In this document: positions 3,974-56,109 of the stretch, piece after piece | How positions within the stretch are numbered: position 1 is the first letter of the stretch | Layout of the letters: each line of letters begins with the position of its first letter | Assembly: GCA_021154885.1 (NCBI GenBank) | Contig: JAJKHS010000095.1 | Location: 1-64,000 of the forward strand | Reading direction: 5' to 3' | Source of the DNA: Thermoanaerobaculum sp. | GTDB taxonomy: Bacteria > Acidobacteriota > Thermoanaerobaculia > Multivoradales > UBA5704 | DNA length: 64,000 nt | Program-made: the position numbers and the translations under genes | The notes under the pieces: generated by a model | Told to the model about the DNA's origin: nothing | The model's database searches: none | The model's input: the letters and a program-made list of their open reading frames with translations, nothing else

Positions 3974-4477
3974 ATGGCAGAACCATTTCTCAGCGAGATT
4001 CGGATCATGAGTTTCGGCTTTCCCCCCAAAGGCTGGGCGCTTTGTGATGGGCAGCTCTTGCCAATCAACCAGAACCAGGCGCTCTTCTCGCTCCTGGGTA
4101 CCACCTATGGTGGTGACGGCAGGGTCAACTTCGGACTGCCGAATCTGCAGGGAAGGGTGCCGATCCATATGGGTAGCGGCCACACATTGGGGGAACGGGG
4201 AGGAGAGCAGGCCCACACCCTCTCGATCTCAGAGCTGCCGACCCACACCCACACGGCCATTGCCGCGGCGGTCGATGGAACGCAGCCGACTCCGGCAGCA
4301 AACTATCTCGGCCAGTCGCTGAAACAGCCATATCATGCGGCCGACAACAATCTCGGCGCACTGGCCGCTGGATCTCTGGCCAACGTCGGCGGATCGCAGG
4401 CTCACCTGAACATGCAACCGTTCCTGGTGCTGAACTTCAGTATTGCGCTGCAGGGCATCTTTCCGAGCCAGACCTAA
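3974..4477 (+). CDS. Phage tail collar domain protein (MdpB-type), copy 1 of 3
   Basis: This 167-residue protein starts at the ATG preceded by GGGAGGT. The N-terminus (EIRIMSFGFPPKGWALCDGQ, then LLGTTYGGDG and LPNLQGRVPIH) is the classic Phage Tail Collar domain (PF07484) seen in microcystin-dependent protein MdpB and in phage or injection-system fibres. The C-terminus has the family ending GGSQAHLNMQPFLVLNF. It is the first of three tandem paralogues (14- and 9-bp gaps), followed by GNAT and DUF6916 genes. No other tail, baseplate or capsid genes are nearby, so a prophage is unlikely; a secreted or surface trimeric fibre-like role is inferred. Confidence 0.88.
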   Translation: MAEPFLSEIRIMSFGFPPKGWALCDGQLLPINQNQALFSLLGTTYGGDGRVNFGLPNLQGRVPIHMGSGHTLGERGGEQAHTLSISELPTHTHTAIAAAVDGTQPTPAANYLGQSLKQPYHAADNNLGALAAGSLANVGGSQAHLNMQPFLVLNFSIALQGIFPSQT

Positions 4478-4491
4478 AAGGGGACGAAGAC

Positions 4492-4995
4492 ATGGCACAG
4501 CCTTACGTTGGAGAAATCCGCATGTTCGCCGGCAACTTCGCTCCCGCGGGATGGATGTTCTGTGAAGGACAGTTGCTTCCTATTTCCGAGTACGAGACGT
4601 TGTTCAACCTCATCGGCACCACCTACGGGGGCGACGGTCAGAGCACGTTTGCACTCCCCGACCTGCGCGGCCGCGTGCCGATGCACTTTGGAAACGGATT
4701 CACACTGGCCGAGACGGGGGGCGTTGAAACCGTGACCCTGACCGTGAGCCAGATTCCGGCGCACTCCCACGCCTTCCTCGGAACCTCCTCGACCGGGCTG
4801 GACAACAGCCCGCTCAACGACGTTCTGGCGGAGTCCACGACTCTCACGCAGTTCACCAATTCTGCGCCGACCGTGGCGATGGCCCCTGGAACCTGCTCAT
4901 CGACCGGGGGAAGCCAGCCGCACAACAACTTCCAGCCGTATCTCTGTGTTGACTTCATTATCTCGCTGTTCGGGATCTTCCCGTCACAGACATAG
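4492..4995 (+). CDS. Phage tail collar domain protein, copy 2 of 3
   Basis: This 167-residue paralogue has the same architecture: EIRMFAGNFAPAGWMFCEGQ at the N-terminus, then LIGTTYGGDGQSTFALPDLRG, a variable Ser/Thr-rich middle and the ending GGSQPHNNFQPYLCVDF. The start is set by an AAAGGGG-type ribosome site 10 bases upstream. It keeps the GWxFCEGQ and TTYGGDG signatures of the collar domain. It lies 14 bp after copy 1 and 9 bp before copy 3, so the three are almost certainly one transcript. The variable middle probably forms the part exposed away from the collar fold. Confidence 0.88.
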   Translation: MAQPYVGEIRMFAGNFAPAGWMFCEGQLLPISEYETLFNLIGTTYGGDGQSTFALPDLRGRVPMHFGNGFTLAETGGVETVTLTVSQIPAHSHAFLGTSSTGLDNSPLNDVLAESTTLTQFTNSAPTVAMAPGTCSSTGGSQPHNNFQPYLCVDFIISLFGIFPSQT

Positions 4996-5004
4996 GAGAG
5001 AGCC

Positions 5005-5532
5005 ATGGATCCTTTCGTCGCCGAGATCCGCATCTTCCCGTTCAACTTCGCGCCCAAGGGATGGGCGTTCTGCGATGGCCAGATCCTGCCGCTCAGTCAG
5101 AACACGGCGCTGTTCTCCCTCCTCGGGACCACCTACGGGGGGGACGGCAAGTCGAACTTTGCATTGCCCAATATGCAGGGCAACGTGCCGATGCACCCTG
5201 GGCAGGGCCCGGGCCTCTCCCTGCACGACCTCGGTGAGACCGGTGGCTCTGAGACCGTTACCCTTCTCGAGTCGGAGATTCCCGCCCACTCGCACACGAT
5301 GATGTCTCTGCCGGCCCCGGCCAACCGCACCGCCCCAATCGGCAACTCGATCGCCCGCGTACAGGGGACGAGCGGCCCATACGTTCCGGCCAGCCCGACA
5401 CCGGCGCCCGCCAACATGAACGACAATGCCGTTACGCCCGCCGGCGGTGACCAGCCGCACAACGACATGCAGCCATACCTGACCCTCAACTTCTGTATCG
5501 CCCTCCAGGGCGTGTACCCTCCGCGAACCTGA
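5005..5532 (+). CDS. Phage tail collar domain protein, copy 3 of 3
   Basis: This 175-residue paralogue opens with EIRIFPFNFAPKGWAFCDGQ, then LLGTTYGGDGKSNFALPNMQG, and ends GGDQPHNDMQPYLTLNFCIALQG. The ATG is preceded by AGGAGAG. It is slightly longer than its neighbours because of a Pro/Thr/Ala-rich insertion at about 105-135. The three copies differ mostly in this middle region while N- and C-termini are conserved, as expected for proteins that share a trimerisation or attachment fold but present different tips. A strong hairpin follows and probably ends the collar transcript. Confidence 0.88.
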   Translation: MDPFVAEIRIFPFNFAPKGWAFCDGQILPLSQNTALFSLLGTTYGGDGKSNFALPNMQGNVPMHPGQGPGLSLHDLGETGGSETVTLLESEIPAHSHTMMSLPAPANRTAPIGNSIARVQGTSGPYVPASPTPAPANMNDNAVTPAGGDQPHNDMQPYLTLNFCIALQGVYPPRT

Positions 5533-43607: not shown

Positions 43608-44020
43608 TCTCTCCAACCGGCCAGGCCGGCGCCGCGGTCGAGGACCGGACCTTCGCGGCGTTGCGCGAGCTCGCCCGCGAGGCCCCGGTCGAGGTGCGGG
43701 TGCGGGGGGACTGCATGGCCCCCCTCCTCGCCGGCGGCGAGCGGGTGCGGGTCGCCGCCGCCCACCTCTACTGGCCCGGCGACGTGGTGGTCTTCCGCGC
43801 GCCGGACGGCCGCCTCCTCGCCCATCGCCTGCTGGGCTATCGCCTCCACGGCGGCGGCCTCGCCCTGGTGACTCGCGGCGACGCCTGCGCCGTGCACGAC
43901 GCGCCGGTGCCCCTTGCCCGCGTGCTGGGGCGCGTGGCCGCGGCGTCCCCGGGCCTGGCCGGCCGTGCGGCGGCGCTCGGCCGCTTCTGCGCGCTGGCGC
44001 TGCGGTGTCTGCGGCATTGA
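43604..44020 (+). CDS. S24/S26 signal-peptidase-like protein with Cys in place of the catalytic Ser
   Basis: This 138-residue protein aligns with the S26 fold: VRVRGDCMAPLLAGGERV is the box that normally reads G-x-S-M-x-P, here with Cys37 in place of serine, and GDVVVFRAPDGRLLAHRLLG is the second box, with His74 in the place used by His in SipW/ER-type signal peptidases. It has no N-terminal membrane helix. It could be a Cys-His protease, a binding protein, or inactive. Such proteins occur near PqqD and HPr-kinase-like genes; start and stop overlap both neighbours (4 and 16 bp). Confidence 0.78.
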   Translation: MISPTGQAGAAVEDRTFAALRELAREAPVEVRVRGDCMAPLLAGGERVRVAAAHLYWPGDVVVFRAPDGRLLAHRLLGYRLHGGGLALVTRGDACAVHDAPVPLARVLGRVAAASPGLAGRAAALGRFCALALRCLRH

Positions 44021-44970
44021 GCTTCGGCGGCGGCTTCCTCCACCACCCCGACCTCTTCCCGGGGCGCCGCAGCGGCGAGGCCTGGGGGGACCGCGGTGTC
44101 ACCCTCGACGTGCCGGGCGGCCCCTACCGCTTCTCCGGCCTCACCGCCGCTCAGGAGGAGGCCGTGCGCCGCCGCTTCGGCGGCCTCTGCCGGCCGGTGG
44201 TGAAGGAGGAGGGGGAGGGGGAGGGGATCGCGACCGCCGTCTTCCGCGCCCCGCTCGCCGACTTCCTGGAGATCGACACCCGGGGCTGGGAGTACGCCCT
44301 GGACCTCGACCACACCCCTCTTTCTGTGCGCGTCGCCGGGCTGCGCCTGATGGCGCGGCTGGACTGGGTGCCCGGGCTCGCCGGCGGCCTCTGGACCTCG
44401 GAGGCGGCGGGGGAGGAGTGGACGTCGGTCTGCGAGAACTACCTCCGCCTGCTCGCCGCCTACCGCCTGCTGGCGGCGGGGGGCGTGGTGCTGCACAGCG
44501 CCGGAGTGACCGGGGGGACCGAGGGGAGCGATGGCGATGGCGCCGCGGCCTGGCTCCTCCTCGGCCCCTCCGGCGCCGGCAAGACCACCGCCTCCCGGCT
44601 CTGCCTCGCGGCCGGCGCCGAGGTCCTCTCCGATGACCTGAACGCTGTGCTGATGGATCGCGGCGGCCCCGTCGTGGCGCGGCTCCCCTTCACCGGCGAC
44701 CTCGGCTCAAGGGATGACGGTCCCGGGACGTATCCGCTGCGCGGCGTGCTCCGCCTGCGCCAGGGACCTCGCGAGGAGCTCGCCCCCCTGTCGCCGGCCG
44801 CGGCCCTGGCCGCGCTCGCCGCCGCCGCGCCCTACGTCAACCGCGACCCGTTCCGGCGCGAGGCCCTGCTCGCCGTGCTCGAGCGGCTGGCGCGCGCGGT
44901 GCCGGCCTGGGAGCTGACGTTCTCGCTGCGGGCCGACCTCTGGTCTATACTGAAGACGCTTTCAAAATGA
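44005..44970 (+). CDS. HPr-kinase-like protein (module 1)
   Basis: This 321-residue protein has a P-loop LGPSGAGKTTASR (Walker A 187-194) followed by VLSDD (Asp210/Asp211), as in HprK/P kinases, and LLAAGGVVLHSAGV before it, which is the usual lead-in strand. The N-terminal 150 residues are family-specific. It starts with GTG 44005, overlapping the previous gene by 16 bp, and shares 4 bp with PqqD. HprK-like + PqqD + radical SAM is the arrangement of the SynChlorMet cassette (ScmC-ScmD-ScmE/F), so the kinase may phosphorylate a peptide substrate. Confidence 0.82.
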   Translation: MSAALSFGGGFLHHPDLFPGRRSGEAWGDRGVTLDVPGGPYRFSGLTAAQEEAVRRRFGGLCRPVVKEEGEGEGIATAVFRAPLADFLEIDTRGWEYALDLDHTPLSVRVAGLRLMARLDWVPGLAGGLWTSEAAGEEWTSVCENYLRLLAAYRLLAAGGVVLHSAGVTGGTEGSDGDGAAAWLLLGPSGAGKTTASRLCLAAGAEVLSDDLNAVLMDRGGPVVARLPFTGDLGSRDDGPGTYPLRGVLRLRQGPREELAPLSPAAALAALAAAAPYVNRDPFRREALLAVLERLARAVPAWELTFSLRADLWSILKTLSK

Positions 44971-45278
44971 CGGACATTCATCCATCCACCGTCCTGCGCC
45001 GGCGGCCGGACGTGCGCTACCGCCGGATCGAAGGCGAGGCCGTGGTGCTGCGCCAGTCGGCGGCCGAGGTGCTGGTGCTCAACGGCGTGGGCGCCGACGT
45101 GCTCGACCTCGCGGACGGCCGGCGGCCGGTGGGCGAGTGGATCGACGTTCTCGCCCGGGAGTACGGCGCCGATCGCGAGGTCGATCGCGAAACAGTGATG
45201 CGGGACGTCCTGGACTTCGCCGCCGAGGCCGCGGCGGCCGGGCTGCTGGAGCCGGTGACGGCAGAGGATGACGGATGA
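44967..45278 (+). CDS. PqqD-family peptide chaperone (module 1)
   Basis: This 103-residue protein has the PqqD/RRE winged-helix pattern: VLRRRPDVRYRRIEGEAVVLR, EVLVLNGVGADVLDLADG and a C-terminal helix before LLEPVT. PqqD-type domains bind the leader of a peptide substrate and hand it to the partner radical SAM enzyme, which begins 4 bp inside its end (45275). It therefore supports a RiPP-like modification, but the substrate of this module is not obvious nearby. Confidence 0.9.
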   Translation: MTDIHPSTVLRRRPDVRYRRIEGEAVVLRQSAAEVLVLNGVGADVLDLADGRRPVGEWIDVLAREYGADREVDRETVMRDVLDFAAEAAAAGLLEPVTAEDDG

Positions 45279-46357
45279 GCCTGGCGCGCCTGATGGCCAC
45301 GGCCTGGCGGCAGAACCTCCTGGTCTCCGTCCTGGTGGAGCTGACCTACCGCTGCAACCTCGACTGCTTCTTCTGCTACAACGACCTCAGCCTCAAGGGG
45401 GAGCCGCTCAGCCGGGAGCAGTACTTCCGGTTCTTCGACGAGCTGCGCGACCTGGAGGTGCTGCATCTCGCTCTCTCCGGCGGCGAGCCGCTGGCGCATC
45501 CGGACTTCCTGGCCTTGGGCGCGCGGGCGCGGGAGCTGGGCTTCGTGGTGCGCATCAAGTCCAATGGCCACGCCCTGCGCGGCGAGCTCGCCCGGCGCAT
45601 CCGCGACGAGATCGATCCTTTCCTCGTCGAAGTCAGCCTGCACGGCGCCACCGCCGCCACCCACGACCGGCAGACCCGGGTGCCGGGCAGCTTCGAGCGC
45701 CTGCTGGCCAACCTCGCCGAGGTGCGGGCCCTGGGGCTGCGGGTGAAGCTCAACTCGACGCTGACGGCCTGGAACGAGGGGGAGATCGAGGCGATGTTCG
45801 CCCTCGCCGACACCCTGGGCCTGCCCCTCCAGGTCGATCCCGAGGTGACACCGCGCGACGACGGCGGCCGCGAGCCGCTCGCGGTGACGCCGTCGCGCGA
45901 CGGGGTGCTGCGGCTCTTCCGTCTCCAGACCGAGCGGGGCCGCGCGAGCGATGCAATCATTCCGGCATCGGCCCGCAGCGCGGACGAGAACGTCCCGGTG
46001 CCGACGGACAAGCACTGCGGCGCCGGCTCCTCGGGGCTGGCCGTCGATCCCTTCGGCAACATCTATCCGTGCGTGCAGTGGCGGTGGCCGGTGGGCAACC
46101 TCCACTCGCAGAGCCTGCGGCAGATCTGGCAGGGCGCGGCGGGGCTCGCGGCGGTGCGGGAGCTGACGACCCGGGCGAAGGGCGTGGTGGAAAGCCATGG
46201 CCCGCGGGGCTTCCTCCTCAACTTCTGCCCCGGCGCGGCCGCCGCCCACACCGGCGATCCGCTCGCCGTCTACCCCGCGGCCTTGCAGCGCCGGGAACTG
46301 CTGGAGCAGGTGCTGGCGGCGGAGGCCCGGCGCCCCCTCCTGCCCGTGGTGCGCTAA
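45275..46357 (+). CDS. Radical SAM/SPASM peptide-modifying enzyme
   Basis: This 360-residue protein has the radical SAM cluster motif CNLDCFFC (Cys27, Cys31, Cys34), GGEPLAHPDF for SAM binding, and a SPASM-type C-terminal region with CGAGSSGLAVDPFGNIYPC and a further Cys in NFCPGAA, so auxiliary Fe-S clusters are likely. With PqqD and a kinase in front it fits a RiPP maturase. It is the last of the seven overlapping genes; a hairpin follows at 46572. Confidence 0.92.
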   Translation: MSLARLMATAWRQNLLVSVLVELTYRCNLDCFFCYNDLSLKGEPLSREQYFRFFDELRDLEVLHLALSGGEPLAHPDFLALGARARELGFVVRIKSNGHALRGELARRIRDEIDPFLVEVSLHGATAATHDRQTRVPGSFERLLANLAEVRALGLRVKLNSTLTAWNEGEIEAMFALADTLGLPLQVDPEVTPRDDGGREPLAVTPSRDGVLRLFRLQTERGRASDAIIPASARSADENVPVPTDKHCGAGSSGLAVDPFGNIYPCVQWRWPVGNLHSQSLRQIWQGAAGLAAVRELTTRAKGVVESHGPRGFLLNFCPGAAAAHTGDPLAVYPAALQRRELLEQVLAAEARRPLLPVVR

Positions 46358-46992: not shown

Positions 46993-48462
46993 ATGAAATT
47001 CCATCGGAGACTGACCCTTTTGATTCTGGCCGGATTGCTGGCCTGCGCCGTGGCCGGCAACGCGACGGCCCTGGCGCCGTTCATCGATCTGCAGGAGCGG
47101 GGTCTCAGCGCCGTCTCTGACGGCAAAGGGCTGATGACCTGGGACCACACCACGCCCGTGAGCCTCAACGTCAACGTCGGGGGCAACGTGCGCTTCGCCC
47201 TGCTGTACTGGGCGGGCCGCGAGCGTCCCTGCGACTGGAACGGCAGCACCTGCGCCTTCACTCAGCCCTACAAAGACCAGCAGATGATCTTCAATGGCAC
47301 CCCGCTCACCGGCACCGTCATCGGCACCGAGAGCCAGCCGACGTCGGCCGGCGGCCCAATCCTCAACATCGGCTACTTCTCCGACGTCACCTCGCAGGTG
47401 GCTGCGGCGGGTCCCGGCAGCCACAGCTTCACCTTCGCGGATAACAACACGGCGAGCAACCTCTGGCGTCTCGACGGCGTCAGCCTGTTCGTCGCCTACA
47501 CCGACGGCTCAGACTCGACCTTCTATCGCCTGATGGTCTGGGACAACCTGGACTTCGCCTACGGCGACGACCCCACGCCCGGCGAGAACCGCGTCACCAG
47601 CCCGGTCACCTTCGGCCACGGAGCGTATTCGGCGGATCGCGCCGGGCAGCTCTGGCTGATCGCGGGCGACGGCGAGGCCGGCCGTCCGGACAACACCACC
47701 ATCAGCAACAACCCCACTCTCTTCAACATCCTCAACAGCGCGAACGGGGATCAGTGGAATAACCTGACGTTCACGATCGACGTCCCGGCCAACGTCAGCA
47801 ACACCGTCGTGCAGATGAACTCGGAGCCTCCGGGCCAGAACCCCGACTCCCTGCTCTGGGAGGTGGCTGCCCTGCGGGTGCCGCTGCCAGGAGGGATCGT
47901 TCAGGAGACCCCCCCGGCGCCGCCGACCTGCCCGACGACCGTGATCTCCGGTCCGCCGACCCAGGCCATCACCACGATCCAGGACGGCGGCTCGGGGCTG
48001 GCCTCGATCGTCGTGACGCAGTCGGACAACGCCGACACGCCGGTGCCGCCCTTCACGCCCGGCACGACCCAGCCGGTGGTGGTGACCGCCACCAAGATCA
48101 ATCAGGGCCAGAGCGCGCACGTCACCATCCAGGCGACGGACGGCGCCGGCAACGTGGCGATCTGCGACCCGATCCTCCTCCTCTTCGCGCGCGGCAGCGG
48201 CCAGCCGCCGAAGGACGTCCTCGCCGACGTGGCGCGGATCGAGAACAAGGTCACGATCCACAACGGCAGGCCGGGGTTTGCCAGCCTGGAGCTGCGCGTC
48301 AACGGCGTCAAGTACAAGGTGACCGGCCTGCGGAAGGGCGAGACGCGGACGGTCGACATCTCGAAGCTCATGACCCTCGACAAGAACACGATCAGCCTGC
48401 TGGGCCGCGGTCCGGCGGGGAGCTGGGCCGAGGTGACCGTCTGGGATGGTGGCGGGAGATAA
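46993..48462 (+). CDS. Secreted beta-rich protein, riboswitch-controlled
   Basis: This 489-residue protein starts at ATG after AAAAGGAGATC, with signal peptide KFHRRLTLLILAGLLACAVAG. The N-terminal domain (about 25-290) has VRFALLYWAGRERPC, SHSFTFADNNTASNLWRLDG and SLFVAYTDGSDSTFYRLMVWD, weakly like DUF3344-type exported domains. A HYR/Ig-like part (295-390) and a small C-terminal domain (GFASLELRVNGVKYKVTGL) follow. No anchor is seen. It lies downstream of the GEMM riboswitch, so c-di-GMP likely controls its synthesis, as expected of a biofilm or matrix protein. Confidence 0.8.
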   Translation: MKFHRRLTLLILAGLLACAVAGNATALAPFIDLQERGLSAVSDGKGLMTWDHTTPVSLNVNVGGNVRFALLYWAGRERPCDWNGSTCAFTQPYKDQQMIFNGTPLTGTVIGTESQPTSAGGPILNIGYFSDVTSQVAAAGPGSHSFTFADNNTASNLWRLDGVSLFVAYTDGSDSTFYRLMVWDNLDFAYGDDPTPGENRVTSPVTFGHGAYSADRAGQLWLIAGDGEAGRPDNTTISNNPTLFNILNSANGDQWNNLTFTIDVPANVSNTVVQMNSEPPGQNPDSLLWEVAALRVPLPGGIVQETPPAPPTCPTTVISGPPTQAITTIQDGGSGLASIVVTQSDNADTPVPPFTPGTTQPVVVTATKINQGQSAHVTIQATDGAGNVAICDPILLLFARGSGQPPKDVLADVARIENKVTIHNGRPGFASLELRVNGVKYKVTGLRKGETRTVDISKLMTLDKNTISLLGRGPAGSWAEVTVWDGGGR

Positions 48463-48549
48463 GTAAACGGGCACGAATCTTGAACCCTTGTCCGGCGTTG
48501 TCCCCGGAGGCCGACGCCGGGCGTCTTTTCAACCAGCGAGGAGGAACCC

Positions 48550-48624
48550 ATGAAGAAGACGTACAGGAAGCCGTCCCTGCGACGTCTCGGTCTGCTGCGG
48601 CAGATCACCCGGTTCAGCTTCTAG
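48550..48624 (+). CDS. Lasso-leader-type RiPP precursor peptide, 24 residues
   Basis: This very short gene has a strong ribosome site (AGGAGGAA) before ATG 48550. The peptide contains YRKPSLRRLGLLRQIT (residues 5-20), an exact match to the lasso leader motif Y-x2-P-x-L-x3-G-x5-T (Tyr5, Pro8, Leu10, Gly14, Thr20) that PqqD-type (B1) proteins bind. Only RFSF follows Thr20, so there is no room for a lasso ring and tail. The PqqD, B2 protease and kinase genes that follow support its reality. Ser23 is a plausible kinase target. Confidence 0.82.
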   Translation: MKKTYRKPSLRRLGLLRQITRFSF

Positions 48625-48642
48625 TCGCGCTCAACGCGATGC

Positions 48643-48675
48643 GCCGGCGTCGGCCCCTCCCAGGGTCTCGCCGGC
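48643..48675 (+). terminator. Terminator/attenuator between precursor and modification genes
   Basis: GCCGGCG (48643-48649) and CGCCGGC (48669-48675) form a perfect 7-bp stem, followed by TTCTGTTTAT. It sits 18 bp after the precursor stop and 23 bp before the PqqD start. Such hairpins let a precursor be made in excess over its enzymes. Confidence 0.65.
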
Positions 48676-48698
48676 TTCTGTTTATACGGAGGGAATCG

Positions 48699-48980
48699 AT
48701 GATCGGAGCCGACAGCCGCCTCCGGCACCGCGACCGCGTGCTGATCCAGCGCGCGGTCGGCACGCTGGTCCTGCTGGATCTGGAAGGCGGCCAGTACTTC
48801 GCCCTCGACGAGGTGAGCGCCCGCGTCTGGGAGCTGTGCGACGGCGAGCACGGCATCGGCGCGATCGTCGAGGCCATCGGCTCCGAGTACGACGCGCCGG
48901 TGGAGACGATCCGCGAGGACGTGATGGCGTTCCTCCAGGAGATGCTGGATGAGAAACTCCTGGTGGTCCAGGAATCCTGA
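48699..48980 (+). CDS. PqqD-family RRE protein (lasso B1-like)
   Basis: This 93-residue protein starts at ATG 48699 after CGGAGGG. It shows the PqqD/RRE pattern: LIQRAVGTLVLLDLEGGQYFALDEVSARVWELCDGEH (in two blocks) and a C-terminal helix AFLQEMLDEKLLVVQ. In lasso pathways the separate B1 protein binds the leader at its Tyr/Pro/Leu/Gly positions and presents it to the B2 protease, encoded next with a 32-bp overlap. The partner is therefore probably the 24-residue peptide just upstream. Confidence 0.9.
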   Translation: MIGADSRLRHRDRVLIQRAVGTLVLLDLEGGQYFALDEVSARVWELCDGEHGIGAIVEAIGSEYDAPVETIREDVMAFLQEMLDEKLLVVQES

Positions 48981-49380
48981 GGCTCCGGGCGGGGTTTCCA
49001 CCGTCCTCTTCGCGGCGGCCGTGCCGCTGCTGCTGCGCTGGTGCGCCCTCGACCGCCTGCACGCCTTCCTGGAACCGCGCGGCCCGCTGCCGCCCGCTCC
49101 CACTACCGCCGCGGTCGCGGCCCAGGTGGCCCGCGTCGACCGCCTGCTCGCGGCCGGCCGGCCGCTGGTGCGCTCCGGCTGCCTGGTGCGCGGCCTGACC
49201 CTCTACCGCGTCCTGCGCCGCGCCGGGGCCGAGGTCTCCCTGCGCTTCGGAGTGGGTGTGATCGGAGGTCAACCGGGAGGCCGGATGGCGGCCCACTGCT
49301 GGCTCGTCTACCAGGGCGAGCCCCTGGCCGAGCCGCGCGACCCGCGGCTCCTGTTCGCGGAGACCTGGAGCATTCCATGA
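48949..49380 (+). CDS. Lasso peptide B2-type transglutaminase-like leader protease
   Basis: This 143-residue protein has the B2 core: VRSGCLVRGLTLYRVLRRAG with catalytic Cys78, LRFGVGVIGG, and AAHCWLVYQGEPLAE with catalytic His116; Glu128 sits where the third acidic residue is expected. The N-terminal 45 residues contain a hydrophobic segment. B2 proteases cut the leader after the conserved Thr-x. Here that would release only a tri- or tetrapeptide. It overlaps PqqD upstream by 32 bp and the kinase downstream by 4 bp. Confidence 0.88.
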   Translation: MRNSWWSRNPEAPGGVSTVLFAAAVPLLLRWCALDRLHAFLEPRGPLPPAPTTAAVAAQVARVDRLLAAGRPLVRSGCLVRGLTLYRVLRRAGAEVSLRFGVGVIGGQPGGRMAAHCWLVYQGEPLAEPRDPRLLFAETWSIP

Positions 49381-50555
49381 CCGCTTCCACCCATCAGCTC
49401 CACGGCGTGCGCTTGGCCGTGACGGCGGCGGCGGAGGCGGAACGGGCCGCGGCGGGCATCCGCGCCCGGCTGGCCGGCCTGCCGCAGGGAGATGATGGCC
49501 CGCCGGACGTGACCTTCGAGGTGATTGCCGGCGGCCACTCCTTCGGCCGGCCGGCCCGGGCGCGGCCGGTCTACGATCCGCCGTTCGGTGAGGTGGTCTA
49601 CGACGACGCCGCGGACCTCCTCCACATCGGCCTGGGGTCCCGCCTCGCGGTGCTCTGCGAGGCGGGCCTGGGGTGGACCCGGGCGTCGGTCGACGGCCTG
49701 GAGGAGAGGGACCTCTGGACGCTCTCCCACCCGCTCTTCACCCTGCCGCTGGTCGAGATGCTGAAGCGGCGGGGATTGTACGGATTGCACGCCGGAGGCG
49801 TCTGCCGCGATGGCCGGGCCCTGCTCCTGCCCGGCACCAGCGGCTCCGGCAAGACCACCCTCACCCTTGCCCTGGCCCGCGCCGGCCTCGGCTTCCTGGG
49901 AGACGACACCCTGTTCCTGCGGTTCCTGCGCGATGGGCCGGAGGGGCTCGCGGTGCTGGCCTTCCCCGACGAGTTCGACCTGACGGACGAGACCGTCGCC
50001 TTCTTCCCCGAGTTGCGGGCGCTCCTCGACGCCGACCGGCCCGACGGCTGGCGCAAGCGGCAGGTGCGGCCGGAGCGGGCCTGGGGGGCCGGCGTCGTCT
50101 GGCGGGCGGCGCCGGCGCTGCTGGTCTTCCCCCGGGTGGCGGGCACACCGGAGAGCACGCTCGCGCCCATGGACCGCGGCGAGGCGCTGCTGGAGCTGGC
50201 GCCCAACGTCCTCCTCACCGAGCCCCGCTCCTCCCAGGCCCATCTCGACGCGCTCGCCGGGCTGGTGGAGCGCAGCGAGTGCTGGCGGCTGGCCACCGGC
50301 ACGGACCTCGGCGGGGCGGTGCGGGTGTTGACGGAGCTGATGGGTGGCGACGCCCCCCGCCCGGAGCCCTCACCCCCTACCCCCTCTCCCGCCCCCTCCC
50401 ACCCCCCTCACCGGGAGAGGGGGACCCGGTTGGAGATTTCTTGCCTTTCTCCCTCTTCTCCCGGGGAGGGGGGTTGGGAGGGGGCGGGAGAAGAGGGCCG
50501 GGGTGATGAGGATCTTGGGAGGGGGCGCTCTGACGGGGAAGGAGCCGCGCCATGA
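49377..50555 (+). CDS. HPr-kinase-like protein (module 2), with a repeat-derived C-terminal tail
   Basis: This 392-residue protein has LHAGGVCRDGRALLLPGTSG, P-loop GTSGSGKT (153-160) and FLGDD (Asp176/Asp177), as in the HPr-kinase homologues of lasso clusters that phosphorylate a C-terminal Ser. ATG 49377 is in the stop of the B2 gene. The domain ends near VRVLTELMGGD (about 325); the last 65 residues are Pro/Ser/Gly/Glu-rich and encoded by a palindromic repeat, so they are probably not functional. The next gene begins within its stop (ATGA). Confidence 0.85.
   Translation: MTASTHQLHGVRLAVTAAAEAERAAAGIRARLAGLPQGDDGPPDVTFEVIAGGHSFGRPARARPVYDPPFGEVVYDDAADLLHIGLGSRLAVLCEAGLGWTRASVDGLEERDLWTLSHPLFTLPLVEMLKRRGLYGLHAGGVCRDGRALLLPGTSGSGKTTLTLALARAGLGFLGDDTLFLRFLRDGPEGLAVLAFPDEFDLTDETVAFFPELRALLDADRPDGWRKRQVRPERAWGAGVVWRAAPALLVFPRVAGTPESTLAPMDRGEALLELAPNVLLTEPRSSQAHLDALAGLVERSECWRLATGTDLGGAVRVLTELMGGDAPRPEPSPPTPSPAPSHPPHRERGTRLEISCLSPSSPGEGGWEGAGEEGRGDEDLGRGRSDGEGAAP
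50368..50511. repeat. G/C-rich palindromic repeat inserted in frame in the kinase gene
   Basis: Nested inverted arms: 50382-50409 pairs with 50466-50497 (all 28 left-arm bases find partners; four extra on the right) and CCGGGAGA (50411-50418) pairs with TCTCCCGG (50457-50464); outer CCTCACCCC (50368-50376) faces GGGGTGATGAGG (50500-50511). It resembles CCCTCTCCC/GGGAGAGGG REP-like elements found in many GC-rich genomes. Confidence 0.8.
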
Positions 50556-51634
50556 CCGCCGAAGATCGCCTCCTCCTCCTCTGCGCCCGGCAGGACTTCA
50601 CGCCGCAGCACCAGGAGGCTGCCGCGGCGATCTGCCGCGCCGAAACGACCGGAACGACCGGAGCCATCCGCTGGGATTGCCTCCTCTCCACGGCGGAGCG
50701 GCATGGCGTGCTGCCCATCGTCGGGTGGAACCTGCAACGCTGCGGCGCCCCGCTGCCGGCGGCGGTGGCGGGGCGGCTGGAGCTCGCGATCTTCGAGAAC
50801 GCCGCCGTGAAGGAGCGGGACGCCGACCGCCTCGCCGCCGGCCTCGCCGCACTGCGCGAGGTCGGGCTCGAAGCCCTGCTGCTCAAGGGTACGGCCCTCG
50901 ACCTGCTGGTCTACGACGAGCCCTGGGTCGCCGTGTCGAAGGATATCGACCTGTCGCTGCGGCCCAGCGGGCCCGGGTGGGGGAGGGGAAAGGGGAGGGA
51001 GAAGGAGGTCCGCCGCGCCCTCTACACCCATGGTGTCGAGTGCGATCTCGACGGGCACCACGACCTCACCCTCAACGGCCTGCTGCCGCTGGACTTCGGC
51101 AGGATCTGGCGCGAGGCCCGGCCCTTGAGCTTCCGCGGCCAGCCGGCCTGGGTGATGTCGCCCGAGGACCTCCTGGTCTCCCTCTGCGTCAACGCCTGCC
51201 GCAAGCGCTTCTTCCGCCTGAAGGGGCTGTTCGACGTCGCCGAGACCATTCGCCGGGGCGGCCCGTTCGCCGTCGCCCGGCTGGCCGCCATCACCCGCGA
51301 GGGGCGCTGCGGCGGCGTGGTCTACGCGGCCCTCGCCGCCGCCCGCGGGACTCTCGGCGCCGAGTTGCCTGCGGAAATGGCGCTGGAGACGATGGCGGCT
51401 TTGGGGATCTCCCGTCCGCGGGCCGGGCTGCTGCGCCTGCTGGTGACGGCCTTCCGCCGTTGCGGCTCGTTCGCGGGACGCTCGGGCCGCCTCTTCGGCC
51501 TGGCCCTGGTGGCGGCCGGCCTGCGGCCGGCGGATCTCGTCCGTTTCTTCGTCTACGGCGTCACCCGCCGGCCCAAACGCCCGTTTATTCCCCCGGCCCC
51601 GCCGGCGCCGGCGGCGGCGCGACCGGCGCCTTGA
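50552..51634 (+). CDS. Nucleotidyltransferase family protein (NTP_transf_5 type), module 2
   Basis: This 360-residue protein is a distant paralogue of the gene at 40580: LEALLLKGTALDLLVY with Lys112 and VSKDIDLSLRP with Asp131 and Asp133. A short G/A-rich run (GWGRGKGREKE) interrupts the domain at about 142-152 and may be another repeat relic. It starts in the kinase stop (ATGA). With a kinase before it, it may add a group to a phosphorylated peptide, as reported for related lasso tailoring proteins; here the substrate would be unusual. The 3' end overlaps the convergent peptidase gene by 50 bp. Confidence 0.82.
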   Translation: MTAEDRLLLLCARQDFTPQHQEAAAAICRAETTGTTGAIRWDCLLSTAERHGVLPIVGWNLQRCGAPLPAAVAGRLELAIFENAAVKERDADRLAAGLAALREVGLEALLLKGTALDLLVYDEPWVAVSKDIDLSLRPSGPGWGRGKGREKEVRRALYTHGVECDLDGHHDLTLNGLLPLDFGRIWREARPLSFRGQPAWVMSPEDLLVSLCVNACRKRFFRLKGLFDVAETIRRGGPFAVARLAAITREGRCGGVVYAALAAARGTLGAELPAEMALETMAALGISRPRAGLLRLLVTAFRRCGSFAGRSGRLFGLALVAAGLRPADLVRFFVYGVTRRPKRPFIPPAPPAPAAARPAP

Positions 51635-54600
51635 GCCGCAGCGCGGGGTCTCCCAACAGGATGTAGATCCGCGGCAGGTCCGGGTCGCCGCCCAGGGTCC
51701 GGAGCTCGGCGATCGCCCGGCGTATGCGGTCGCCCAGCCGCTCGTCGGCGGCGTGGTAGAAACGGGTGGCCAGGAGCCGCGCGTCGCCGTGGGCCGAGAG
51801 CCCCGAGGGGCCCCAGACCGCGGCGGCGCCGCCGGCCCCGCGCTTCACCAGCAGCTCGCCCAGGGCCGGGATGCCGGGCAGCTCGAAGCGGTTGATGGTG
51901 CACGTCATGGCCGTGAGCACCGGCAGCCGCTCGCCGTTGGTCAGCCCGGGCACGTCGTCGCTGGTGAGCAGGCCGCCCGCGGACAGCCGGTCCAGGGCAC
52001 CGTGCCCCAGGTAGTCGACGAAGGCCGCGCCGCTGGCGAAGCCGGCCAGCACCTGCGAGCGGGCGGCGGCGAGGGGCGTGGAGGTGAGGTCGACCCGCTC
52101 CACCGCGTAGCCGGCCGGGAGCTGGGCGGCCACCCCGCCGCTGTCCGCCGCGAAATCGGCGCCGCGATCGGCGGCGTCGGCGAGGAACAGGGCGTTGCCG
52201 TTCCAGCCCGCCGGAGCGGCGGCTTCGAAGGCAGCGATCTTGGCCGTGTAGGCGTCCAGCTCCGCCGCCGAGAGCACGGGGAGGCGCCCCACGGCCATCT
52301 CGGGGAGCCCGTCGCCGTCCACGTCCGCCAGCAGGTTGTCCGACGGGAAGAGGCCGCTCGGCGTGCGGATCATCAGCGGCGGTACCAGATCGTCGCCGAA
52401 GCCGAGGAGGTTGCGGTAGTCGAGCGTGCCGGCGCCGGCCAGCGCTACGTAGCGGGGCCGCAGGCTCCAGCTCTGCCAGGCATAGGTGAGGAGGTCGCGG
52501 ATGGCGTGCGGGTTCGGCGCGCCGAAGGCGAATTCATCGTAGATCGCCTCGAGGTCCACGACCCGCGCTTCCAGGCCCTGAGCCCGGCGCAGGCCCGCCA
52601 GCCGCTCGGCGGCGGCATGGAGGCCGGCCGGCGCGATCACCAGCCAGGCGGCGCGGTTGGCCGCCGAGCGCAAGGGCAGCGATGGCGCGCTCCACGCCCG
52701 GGGATCGGCAGGCGCCTGGAGGGCGGCGGGGGCCGCGGCCAGGAAGGGGCCGGGGCCGGCCGGCGCGAAGGTCAGCCGGTAGCCGCCGGCGCCGTCCGCC
52801 TCCACCGCCGCGCCGGAGATCCAGCGCGGGCGGAGCGGGTCGCCGACGTCGAGCAGGCGGATGCCGGGGCTGGTGAAGCCCGTCACCGTCACCTTTATCG
52901 CGCCCGAGGCCGGGAAGGCGAGGGCGTCGCCCGCGGCCCGGAACGTCCGCGGGTAGGCGAGGTCGAAGCCGTTCAGGTAGTAGATGCTGTAGGGCGCGCC
53001 GGCGCCGGTGTGCGCCGTGACCTCCACCTGGTTGCCCGCGGCCTGGAGGACGCCGGCCGGGACGGCGAACGCCGCCTGCCGGGCCGCGACTCCCTGCCAG
53101 CTCGTCTCGCCCAGGACGGTGCCGTTGACGGCCACCACCGCCCGGTGCTCGCCGGCCACACCGCTGTCGGTGGCGCCGTAGAGCGAAACTCCCAGGGTGC
53201 CGGCCTGGCCCGCGGCGAGGCCCGGCGCGTCGAGGGGGAAGGTGCGGTGGCCGTAGGTCGGGTCGTCCCCCTGGAGGAACTCCCAGAACCAGTAGTCCGA
53301 CTCGGGGTCCGGCGAGATCAGGGTGGCCGCGAACACGTCGCGCTCGACGTGCAGCGTCTCCGGGAAAGCGGCCGCCGGAGCGCCGGCCGGAGCCGGACCC
53401 ACCGCCGTCACCGCCATCAACAGGCCGGGCTTGCGCTCGAGGCGATAGACGGCGGCGGAGCTGTAGAGGCTATCGGAGGCCTGGCCGTAGAAGAAGAGGC
53501 CCTGGGCCGACTTCAGCGGCCCGAGGCCGGCCGTGAAGTCCGGCATCCAGGCCACGGGCTGGCCGCCGCGGCTCAGGGCCAGCAGGCCCTGGCCGATCGT
53601 CACCTCGGCGAGGGGCTGCGGCATGCCGAACCAGGCAGCCACGTCCGCGCTGCGCAGGTAGTGGAGGCCCGTGGTGCGCACCGCGAGGTGAACCCCTGCG
53701 GCGCTCGCGCCCGGCTTGCCCGTGGGGCTCGTGGGGATCGTCGGGATCAGATCCTTGCGGCCGGCCGCCGATGTCGCCGCGCGGCGGCCGGGCGCGGCGT
53801 GGGCCTCGCGCTCATACTCCGCGGCCAGCTCCCTGGTCTCCCAGCCGCGCCGGTCGCGGCTCCAGTCCACGGTCACGGCGAAGGGGCCGTGGATCCGCCG
53901 CCGGCCGCCGGACTCCACCTCTTCCAGGAGGTAGACCTGGGGCTCGCGCGGCGAGGCGCCGCCGTCCAGGTAGCGGTAGACGCCGCCCTGGGGCTCGTGG
54001 ATCAGGCCCGCCAGCAGCTCGCGGTGGACCGGCTGCCAGCTCTCGCCGTTCCAGCGATGGAGGTAGAAGCCCGCCGTCCCCGCCTCCGACGCCGTGCGCC
54101 ACTCCACGAGCACGCCGCCGCCCGCGGCGGCCGAGGCGTGGAACGAGGAGACCACCGCCTCGGTCAGCAGGCCCTGCGTCACCGCCAGCTCGCACAAAGG
54201 CCCGAAGAGGAACGTCGCCCGGGCCTGCGCGGCCCCCGTTTCGTCCACGTACTGCGCCCGCGTGCCGTTGGCCGAGGCGGGGGTGGCCGTCAGCGGGATG
54301 CGCTGCCCGGCCGAGGTTGGCGTCACCTTCACCCGGTAGGCCAGCAGGGCCGTGGTGCCCGCCGCGACCGTGCCCGGGTTCCAGGTGACGTTGCCCGTGC
54401 CGCCCACGGCGGGCTGGGCGGTGATCGAGCCCTGGCTCACCTGGCCGAGGCCGGCGTAGACCGTGCCGCCGCCGGGTACGTTGGCGGTCACCAGATGCGC
54501 GGCGGAGAAGGTGATGGCCTGCGCCGCCGGGTTGACCACCTGGACGGTGACGGTGTAGCAGCTCGTCTGCCCCACCACCGGCGGGTTCGGCCCGCTGCTG

Positions 54601-55682
54601 GTGCCGCAGCCGCTGAAGGTCGCAAACTGCTCGACGTAGGGCTTGGAAGGAGCCGTGCCGGCGTCCGTCGGCAGATAGACCCGGAAGGCGTTGGGCGTCG
54701 GATTGGCCGCCGGCGGGTTGGCGGCTGCCTGGAAGTTGCTGAAGTAGACGTTGGCGTAGTTACCGTTGACGACACCATTGACCGAATAGGTGTTGATCGT
54801 CATCGCCGCGGCCCAGATCCCGTAATCGGCCGAGCTGGTATCCGAAGTCCAGCCGCTGAAGGTGTCGCGGCGCCAGGTGTTGTCGACCGAGAGCGCGGTG
54901 CTGGCGTAGCTCTGGGTGAAGGCGCCCGTCCGGCTGGTCAAGGTCAGCGAGCCGGTGTTGCCGCTGTTGCTGTCGTAGTCGAAATCGTTCTTGCCGGCCG
55001 AGCAGCCGGAGGTGATGTAGGGGTAGGTCGTGTAGCTCCGCGTGCCGGCGCCGTTGGCGGGCGGATTCACCCCGAACTGATTCTGTGAATCGTAGTAGAC
55101 GTTCAGCTCCGTGCCGCCGGTGCCGGAGTTGCCGTCATGGGCGCGGATGCCGATGGCGTTGATGTCGTCGCCGGTGGCCATGGTCACCCGCAGCTCCCAG
55201 TGCCCGGCTACGGTGTTGGTCGCGGTCGTGCTGTCGAGAATCGCAGTCCAGACGTTGTCGTTGCAGGTATTGTCGTCACAGTTGTTGAGGGTCGCGGCTG
55301 TCGTGCCATCCGGCCGCAGGAGGGTGTAGGAGACGCTCGTGGTGTAGTTGTTGCCGCGGTTGCGGTCGCGGCCGGCGGTGTCCTCGTTCGCGCCGCCGCG
55401 GCCGATGTCCGCGTCGAAGATCTCGACCACCAGCCGCCCCAGGCCAGGAGGCACCTCGATGAAGTAGCGGTAGAAGGTGTTGAGGCCCGGGGCGGTCGAG
55501 GTGACGAAGTCGCCGTCGGTCGTGCCCGCGGCGCTCCCCTGCGGCGTGTAGAGCGCCGTCTGGCCGGTCGAGGCGGCGCGCAGGGAGGGAGTCCCCAGGA
55601 GCAGCGCCAGCGCCAGGAAGGACAGGGTGGCGGAGGTTCGACTCCAGGGTCGTGGCACGAAGGAGAGAGCGGGCCAGAGCAT
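51585..55682 (-). CDS. Secreted C25-family (gingipain-like) cysteine peptidase, 1365 residues
   Basis: It starts at ATG 55682 (GAGGTG upstream) with signal peptide SATLSFLALALLLGTPSLRAA. The N-terminal 500 residues are beta-rich with a pre-peptidase-like domain (FYRYFIEVPPGLGRLVVEIF). The C-terminal 400 residues form the C25 domain: IAPAGLHAAAERLAGLRRAQG, LFPSDNLLADVDGDGLPEMAVGRLP, then YLGHGALD with catalytic His1227 and AMTCTINRF with catalytic Cys1261. Both dyad residues are present. It ends in an Ala/Pro tail without a type IX sorting domain that I can see. It is convergent with module 2. Confidence 0.83.
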   Translation of the reverse strand: MLWPALSFVPRPWSRTSATLSFLALALLLGTPSLRAASTGQTALYTPQGSAAGTTDGDFVTSTAPGLNTFYRYFIEVPPGLGRLVVEIFDADIGRGGANEDTAGRDRNRGNNYTTSVSYTLLRPDGTTAATLNNCDDNTCNDNVWTAILDSTTATNTVAGHWELRVTMATGDDINAIGIRAHDGNSGTGGTELNVYYDSQNQFGVNPPANGAGTRSYTTYPYITSGCSAGKNDFDYDSNSGNTGSLTLTSRTGAFTQSYASTALSVDNTWRRDTFSGWTSDTSSADYGIWAAAMTINTYSVNGVVNGNYANVYFSNFQAAANPPAANPTPNAFRVYLPTDAGTAPSKPYVEQFATFSGCGTSSGPNPPVVGQTSCYTVTVQVVNPAAQAITFSAAHLVTANVPGGGTVYAGLGQVSQGSITAQPAVGGTGNVTWNPGTVAAGTTALLAYRVKVTPTSAGQRIPLTATPASANGTRAQYVDETGAAQARATFLFGPLCELAVTQGLLTEAVVSSFHASAAAGGGVLVEWRTASEAGTAGFYLHRWNGESWQPVHRELLAGLIHEPQGGVYRYLDGGASPREPQVYLLEEVESGGRRRIHGPFAVTVDWSRDRRGWETRELAAEYEREAHAAPGRRAATSAAGRKDLIPTIPTSPTGKPGASAAGVHLAVRTTGLHYLRSADVAAWFGMPQPLAEVTIGQGLLALSRGGQPVAWMPDFTAGLGPLKSAQGLFFYGQASDSLYSSAAVYRLERKPGLLMAVTAVGPAPAGAPAAAFPETLHVERDVFAATLISPDPESDYWFWEFLQGDDPTYGHRTFPLDAPGLAAGQAGTLGVSLYGATDSGVAGEHRAVVAVNGTVLGETSWQGVAARQAAFAVPAGVLQAAGNQVEVTAHTGAGAPYSIYYLNGFDLAYPRTFRAAGDALAFPASGAIKVTVTGFTSPGIRLLDVGDPLRPRWISGAAVEADGAGGYRLTFAPAGPGPFLAAAPAALQAPADPRAWSAPSLPLRSAANRAAWLVIAPAGLHAAAERLAGLRRAQGLEARVVDLEAIYDEFAFGAPNPHAIRDLLTYAWQSWSLRPRYVALAGAGTLDYRNLLGFGDDLVPPLMIRTPSGLFPSDNLLADVDGDGLPEMAVGRLPVLSAAELDAYTAKIAAFEAAAPAGWNGNALFLADAADRGADFAADSGGVAAQLPAGYAVERVDLTSTPLAAARSQVLAGFASGAAFVDYLGHGALDRLSAGGLLTSDDVPGLTNGERLPVLTAMTCTINRFELPGIPALGELLVKRGAGGAAAVWGPSGLSAHGDARLLATRFYHAADERLGDRIRRAIAELRTLGGDPDLPRIYILLGDPALRLKAPVAPPPAPAGPGE

Positions 55683-55752
55683 CGGGCACCTCGGGATCTG
55701 GAAATCCGATCGACGGGAGACCTTCCCACGATAGACCCGAGCGGGCGTAAGG

Positions 55753-56109
55753 TCAAGAATTATCAAGGCGCCGGGTCCCCGGCGAGTACTTCACGATCCG
55801 CACCTTCTCCATGGTGACCAGCCCCTCGGAGACCATCTCGTCGAGGATGGCGAGGAGCGGCTCCACCCGGTCGTGGGACTCCACGATCTCGATCAGCACC
55901 GGCAGGTCCTCGGAGAGGCGCAGGATCTGCGTCGTGTGGAGCACGCTGCGCGCGCCGAAGCCGGCGATGCCGCGGAAGACCGTGGCCCCCGAGAAGCCCT
56001 CCTTGCGCAACCGCTCCACCAGGGCGAGGGCCAGCGGCCGGTGCCGCCACTGATCGCTCTCGCCGACGAAAACGCGGACCAGGGTGCCTTCGCCGTCCAG
56101 GGTGCGCAT
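55753..56109 (-). CDS. DUF190 family protein
   Basis: This 118-residue protein has the DUF190 (PII-like fold) pattern: GTLVRVFVGESDQWRHRPLA, FSGATVFRGIAGFGARSVLH, DLPVLIEIVESHDRVEPLL and MEKVRIVKY. ATG 56109 has AAGGAGGA upstream. DUF190 genes are often beside crcB, as here (14-bp gap), so it probably senses or regulates fluoride or ion transport, though the ligand is not known. Confidence 0.9.
   Translation of the reverse strand: MRTLDGEGTLVRVFVGESDQWRHRPLALALVERLRKEGFSGATVFRGIAGFGARSVLHTTQILRLSEDLPVLIEIVESHDRVEPLLAILDEMVSEGLVTMEKVRIVKYSPGTRRLDNS

Follow-up and report, generated by a model that had tools for sequence, protein, structure and literature searches.

A putative cyclase-free relative of lasso peptide biosynthesis with a predicted tripeptide core in Thermoanaerobaculum sp.

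A short lasso-type precursor gene and its downstream enzymes

We analyzed a 64,000-nucleotide stretch of Thermoanaerobaculum sp. DNA (GenBank assembly GCA_021154885.1, contig JAJKHS010000095.1, here contig C95), referred to below as the window, in which a 24-codon gene for a peptide with a lasso-type leader stands ahead of four enzyme-type genes on the same strand (Table 1). The encoded peptide, MKKTYRKPSLRRLGLLRQITRFSF and then a stop, carries Tyr5, Pro8, Leu10, Gly14 and Thr20. In the published numbering of lasso leaders, which assigns roles to Tyr -17, Pro -14, Leu -12 and Thr -2 (PMC10368454), Tyr5, Pro8, Leu10 and Thr20 take exactly these positions. This register predicts a cut by the B2 protease after Arg21, and thus a 21-residue leader followed by a three-residue core, Phe-Ser-Phe. 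An earlier note on this DNA had described the 24-codon frame, its strong ribosome site (AGGAGG) and the five leader residues, all of which are borne out; the tetrapeptide RFSF that it took for the core gives way to FSF in the lasso register. A chance reading frame was rejected, as the real window has a single instance of the strict motif preceded by a nearby Met, against a mean of 0.0 in 60 codon-block-shuffled windows, and the peptide is conserved in a second genome of the genus (G001) and across the family of ten peptides described below.

The peptide gene ends 74 bp ahead of the PqqD start, and the four downstream genes overlap one another. The same note had read these genes as PqqD-like, B2-type (Cys78/His116), HPr-kinase-like and nucleotidyltransferase, which agrees with their profile matches and with the B2 residues Cys78, His116 and Asp131, invariant across six aligned family members. 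The curated cut-off of TIGR04352 (HprK_rel_A) is reached neither by the window kinase nor by that of locus L098 (47.3 bits). Kinase residues H138, G153, G156, G158, K159, D176 and D177 are invariant in seven kinases, and the series H138-G153-G156-G158-K159-T160-D176-D177 has the same spacing as the key residues H148-G163-G166-G168-K169-S170-D186-D187 of BsfK, a kinase that phosphorylates Ser3 of its core peptide with the aid of B1 (PMC10368454). PF14907 also matches in five further peptide-family loci (87.5-182.6 bits), and PqqD is confirmed by Pfam in four further ones.

Table 1. Features of the peptide locus (window coordinates)
Feature	Position	Strand	Basis and remarks
Secreted-type protein; start judged signal-peptide-like by eye, DUF3344 matched weakly, module at the C-terminus	46993..48462	+	Profile match
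Module, first predicted beta-sandwich (TNA..P.F..GT..VTATK..CDP), 81 residues	47929..48171	+	Profile and structure model
Module, second predicted beta-sandwich, missing from some copies elsewhere	48172..48459	+	Structure model
Hairpin just 5' of the peptide's ribosome site	48490..48522 (region 48478-48530)	+	Folding z -1.01 in the window, -3.74 in G001
Ribosome-binding site (AGGAGG) preceding the peptide gene	48539..48544	+	Sequence, ahead of ATG
Precursor peptide gene, lasso-type leader and predicted core Phe-Ser-Phe	48550..48624	+	24 codons, translated
PqqD-family B1 protein (predicted leader-binding)	48699..48980	+	PF05402, 77 bits
B2 transglutaminase-like leader protease	48949..49380	+	PF13471, 49.7 bits; NF033537, 50.7 bits (cut-off 33)
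HPr-kinase-like peptide kinase, 3' tail derived from a repeat	49377..50555	+	TIGR04352, 60.9 bits, below the 200-bit cut-off
NTP_transf_5 nucleotidyltransferase-like protein	50552..51634	+	PF14907, 98.7 bits (gathering cut-off 31.2)

A search with PF00733 (Asn_synthase) gave no match to an asparagine-synthetase cyclase on the whole 81,706-bp contig C95, with all 11 matches of the genome lying elsewhere. The absence reported earlier for the window therefore extends to the entire contig, and the contig holds no cyclase match beyond the window's edge that could go with a longer precursor. The only other B2 match of the genome is on contig C14 (8381-8911, minus strand), where no PqqD, lasso-type leader or AsnS match was found within the fetched 18 kb. 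The AsnS model likewise gave no match in seven of the eight fetched enzyme-bearing stretches from genomes that encode the peptide, some of them cut by contig ends; the other stretch (L153) has one match about 6 kb past its NTP_transf_5 gene, in a frame starting MCGIAG.

A family of short peptides and its kinase group

The G001 genome encodes MVKKAYRKPSLRRLGLLRRVTRFSF and then a stop, in the same gene order from a polysaccharide-polymerase-like gene through the NTP_transf_5 gene. We ran the DNA pattern Y-x2-P-x-L-x3-G-x5-T-x-F-[mostly S/T]-F-stop over a collection of species genomes and obtained 46 matches. Six are genuine short peptide open reading frames (ORFs), found in G449 (Actinomycetota), G450 (Acidimicrobiaceae), G451 (Acidobacteria), G452 (Acidimicrobiia) and G453 (Solirubrobacterales), all metagenome-assembled genomes, and in G001 (Thermoanaerobaculia). 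Another 38 were dropped as internal stretches of longer frames with RTHFSFW or a near variant, in which the TRR of the pattern matched Trp; we take these frames to be M14 carboxypeptidase-like. The last two (L114 and L115) are chance matches. A peptide profile built from seven peptides (A6) found a single copy in the own genome and a second one in G449, MRRRYVKPKLTRLGLLRKLTGAFSF and then a stop. Together with two peptides of genome G878, MKRPYRKPQVRRLGLLRKLTRFSF and MTKRPYVKPALKQLGLLRKLTRFSVV (each then a stop), the family amounts to ten short peptides in eight genomes of two phyla, in groups of Thermoanaerobaculia, Acidobacteria and Actinomycetota.

The family appears rare and sporadic within the samples searched, as A6 was positive in 2 of 299 genomes of the class of G453, both already known, and among 396 genomes of the phylum in the own genome only. 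Matches in G002, an 82% complete genome of the same genus, and in G003, which belongs to the same family, were at chance level; these and further A6 matches in G450 and G451 (E 0.27-0.85) were dropped.

All ten peptides keep Y-x-K-P and LGLLR-x2-T and end four to five residues past the Thr. Ten alignment columns are invariant (Y5, K7, P8, L13-R17, T20 and F22), while L10, S23 and F24 each vary in one peptide, L10 being Val in one; the alignment row for the FSVV peptide of G878 is two residues short of its full ending. The predicted core is three to four residues long in all ten, reading FSF, FTF, AFSF or FSVV. The residue that corresponds to Ser23 is Ser in nine of ten and Thr in the tenth, a count that is partly biased because the search pattern nearly demanded Ser or Thr. 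As the pattern also imposed several other columns (Y, P, L, G, T and both F), the unbiased evidence consists of K7, L13, L15, L16 and R17 and of the three peptides found independently of it, namely the second copy of G449 (TGAFSF) and both copies of G878 (TRFSF and TRFSVV), all three with Phe-Ser. This conservation bears on two alternatives. Decay of a lasso locus, its core shortened by mutation and its cyclase lost, would account for lasso-like leader and enzymes with no cyclase near, but the same short form in eight genomes of two phyla, together with intact enzyme motifs, makes it very improbable. The ORF might also be a cis-acting leader or attenuator of the operon and not a substrate. The hairpin upstream of the peptide gene fits such a role, its stem being maintained in G001 through paired base changes, and the GGCACG-N-ATCTTGAA stretch 5' of the hairpin is likewise conserved there; however, the peptide lies far from the enzymes in G449 (copy 1), G450 and G453 and is conserved at the protein level, which leaves the attenuator hardly credible.

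The enzymes recur with the peptide. A kinase of one high-scoring group and PqqD are present in all eight peptide genomes, and B2 of one clade and the NTP_transf_5 gene in seven of eight each, with PF13471 over its cut-off in all seven peptide genomes known before G878; the four genes stand together in the window, G001, G450, G451, G452 and G453. In a tree of 18 B2 rows, the seven from peptide genomes form one clade with a support of 96/91. The kinases score 363-493 bits in the eight peptide genomes against at most 115 bits in 56 other rows. Seven of these eight kinases built the model (A8), whereas that of G878, which scores 363 bits, did not. G878 was picked by its kinase alone, from 375 genomes in the class to which G452 belongs, with six candidates scored per genome: G452 (453 bits) and G878 passed the 300-bit threshold and the next reached at most 100 bits. 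The genome so chosen proved to hold its two peptides together with PqqD, B2, NTP_transf_5 and the partner module introduced below. Outside the own genome, no kinase above 91 bits was found in the 396-genome phylum sample with four candidates scored per genome, the small number of candidates in such samples meaning that absences are not absolute; a kinase search of plasmids gave no match. The earlier note had named loss of the ORF from relatives with the same downstream genes as a refuting result; instead, G001 and the other genomes in which we found the high-scoring kinase retain it. Across these sequences, the peptide, the kinase group and PqqD recur together, usually with B2, NTP_transf_5 and the module, and the enzyme motifs and the leader register are intact.

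B2 itself was rejected as a marker of the system, since 20 of the 98 genomes searched, the own one included, have some B2 match and only that of G001 is close (63%). The 3' end of the window's kinase frame is made by a low-complexity palindromic repeat (50340-50550) that the G001 kinase lacks and that resembles stretches on contigs C13, C36 and C73 of the own genome. Matches of a two-row kinase model (A1) on C13, C73 and C36 were dropped, as its low-complexity C-terminal tail had matched repeats; A8 ends ahead of this tail. Just 5' of the locus, at 44005-46357 (+), a second PqqD, an ScmC-like kinase and a radical SAM (S-adenosylmethionine)/SPASM gene follow in overlapping order and are conserved in G001, with no precursor identified for this set. 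The radical SAM gene was rejected as a core member, because it was found in G001 but not in the loci fetched from the six remaining genomes.

A secreted beta-sandwich module near the peptides

The gene for a secreted-type protein ends 87 bp 5' of the peptide gene on the same strand. Its DUF3344-like match is under the cut-off (E 0.00094), and its last 176 residues form a module of two predicted beta-sandwiches (mean predicted local distance difference test score 89.5). In a structure search of the module model, the best match (Z 8.1, 89 residues, 2.8 A) fell entirely within the second half, as did nearly all matches; other beta-sandwiches tied with it, and the first half was barely covered. 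The matches were common beta-sandwiches only, and we claim no specific fold relative. By profile, the first sandwich of the module is present in seven of the eight peptide genomes (six of seven, and G878) versus 2 of the 396 phylum genomes with up to 14 candidates scored per genome, these two being the own genome and a weak match in G166. G002 and G003, which likewise have no peptide, gave no module match. Each of those seven peptide genomes has a module copy no more than about 4 kb away from a peptide, and in three loci (window, G001 and G449 copy 1) it stands 12-89 bp 5' of it; G449, G450, G452 and G001 also have extra copies with no peptide within 1.5 kb. The N-terminal partners vary, including ice-binding (L139, L165), choice-of-anchor L (L200) and DUF3344-like (window) parts and several others that matched nothing clear. 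Domains of these three kinds carry varied anchors. Some G450 copies and a degenerate G453 copy stop directly behind the final Cys of the first sandwich, and in G450 a transposase-like gene (by eye; L138, 295-1404, minus strand) lies between the peptide and the module protein. The earlier account, sound in its set of lasso machinery, had overlooked this uncommon module.

The module's distribution invites a more specific explanation, decoration of surface proteins, in which the processed phosphorylated tail, or the product of NTP_transf_5, would be a tag or anchor that is joined to the module or recognized by it. Its enrichment in peptide genomes, its closeness to the peptide and its place behind such N-terminal parts all speak for this. 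We nevertheless consider it unlikely, because no transfer enzyme was identified, the enzymes are presumably cytosolic whereas the module proteins are secreted, the G453 module is degenerate, and association is not mechanism. In a looser formulation, the lasso-type precursor would yield a tripeptide that carries a phosphate and perhaps also a sugar or a nucleotide, and this group would mark, anchor or be bound by the secreted beta-sandwich-module proteins; we regard this too as improbable.

Elsewhere in the window, a large peptidase C25 protein (51585-55766, minus strand), similar to sortases of the PorU type, is convergent with the NTP_transf_5 gene, and three small similar proteins stand in tandem at 3974-5532 (+), presumably phage tail-collar proteins to judge by eye.

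Proposed pathway and comparison with known systems

Our preferred reading, to which we give a probability of roughly 0.6, is that the locus is a dedicated cyclase-free relative of lasso biosynthesis whose phosphorylated tripeptide product acts with secreted module proteins at the cell surface. It appears to be a peptide pathway in its own right; no description of a cyclase-free peptide family of this kind was found in the literature searched, judged by titles and the openings of abstracts. The 24-residue peptide would be the precursor of a ribosomally synthesized and post-translationally modified peptide (RiPP), with its 21-residue leader held by PqqD. The HPr-kinase-like enzyme would phosphorylate the core Ser or Thr with PqqD assisting, Ser23 being a plausible site, and B2 would cut after residue 21 to release Phe-Ser-Phe. 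The NTP_transf_5 protein may then add a further group, probably onto the phosphate, as reported for pseudomycoidin (PMC8498205). The small phosphorylated product would finally act at the cell surface together with the module-bearing proteins. We infer each chemical step and their order from homology to lasso systems (PMC10368454, PMC8498205), and the surface role from the co-occurrence of the module and from the polysaccharide-export genes of the window (CpsB, Wzz/Wzc-like, Poly_export and Wzy_C). That lasso-type leader and B1, B2, kinase and nucleotidyltransferase genes have been turned to another product, as the earlier note had suggested, is supported by the conserved short peptides and the missing cyclase match. 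Glycan assembly, which that note had also raised, is a possible setting, with these polysaccharide-export genes in the same window.

A different product would be the uncut 24-mer, perhaps phosphorylated on its tail, as a small regulatory or structural peptide, with B2 serving another role. The conservation of the whole peptide, with an LGLLR that goes beyond the ordinary lasso-leader motif, would suit this, as would the very short core and the second G449 peptide, which has PqqD and a kinase beside it and no B2. On the other hand, one-clade B2 accompanies the family in seven of eight genomes, the six B2 proteins that were aligned all have the same Cys, His and Asp, and Thr -2, which B2 enzymes read, is invariant; we regard the uncut peptide as possible though doubtful.

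Several observations weigh against the cyclase-free tripeptide pathway. The product itself is predicted, as is B2 cleavage of so short a core. Peptide and enzymes lie apart in G449 (copy 1), in G450, where they are on different contigs, and in G453, where about 10 kb of one contig separates them. At the second G449 peptide, PqqD and the kinase are divergent and B2 and NTP_transf_5 are lacking, and the only PF13471 match of that genome sits in a lasso-like cluster (L154, contig C81) with a precursor-like frame, B2, and weak PqqD-like and AsnS-like matches. In the kinase tree, the branch that sets this group apart has a support of just 55, the close pair of window and G001 differs over 23 aligned codons by just five silent to three replacement changes, and the G453 module is a by-eye similarity that the profile search did not find. 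The association of module and peptide could be due to shared transfer. Finally, B2 loci with no cyclase match are common, AsnS being matched in 4 of 18 B2 loci of other relatives, some of them cut by contig ends. The absent cyclase alone is therefore not decisive, and the weight rests on a short, conserved peptide that comes with a kinase group of its own; five strict leaders in those other B2 loci have 18-20 residues after the Thr, versus four to five in the short-peptide family.

The lasso set of leader-binding, protease, kinase and nucleotidyltransferase proteins thus recurs as a unit minus the class-defining step, on a predicted three-residue core. The uncertain roles of kinase and NTP_transf_5 become testable on a minimal substrate, the kinase group can serve as a probe for further members, and the locus points to a link, of which we found no description, that would join a small modified peptide to secreted proteins of one class.

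RiPPs with tiny cores include the biarylitides, PQQ and the PEARL scaffold peptides, made by P450, radical SAM enzymes or aminoacyl-tRNA ligases. They resemble the window in having a long leader and a product of few residues, but the enzymes differ. The HprK-related and SynChlorMet PqqD-kinase cassettes of NCBIfam share PqqD and an HprK-like kinase with it, although the matches are all far under the cut-offs (TIGR04352 and TIGR04355 weak, TIGR04249 14.2 bits). Pseudomycoidin is closer: a kinase and a nucleotidyltransferase occur alongside lasso leader-processing genes and yield a phosphoglycosylated lasso peptide (PMC8498205). That product is a folded lasso peptide modified at its C-terminal Ser, whereas in the window the Ser stands in the middle of the predicted three-residue core, with no cyclase match to accompany it.

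The kinase-type lasso pathways (paeninodin, and BsfA of Bradymonas; PMC8498205, PMC10368454) differ in the same respect, as the window has no cyclase match and a family core of three to four residues leaves no room for a macrolactam ring plus thread. With no cyclase match and so short a core, the predicted product is not a lasso peptide. No transporter was noticed beside the locus, for which no systematic search was made. In common with these pathways, the locus has the Y-x2-P-x-L leader, with a Thr -2 as is typical of lasso peptides (BsfA is an exception, with Ile; PMC10368454), the split B1 (PqqD) and B2 proteins, and an HPr-kinase homologue with the H-G-G-G-K-S/T-D-D series of lasso-type precursor kinases at BsfK spacing. 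In summary, the locus appears to operate in the manner of a kinase-type lasso pathway reduced to its front half and its tailoring end.

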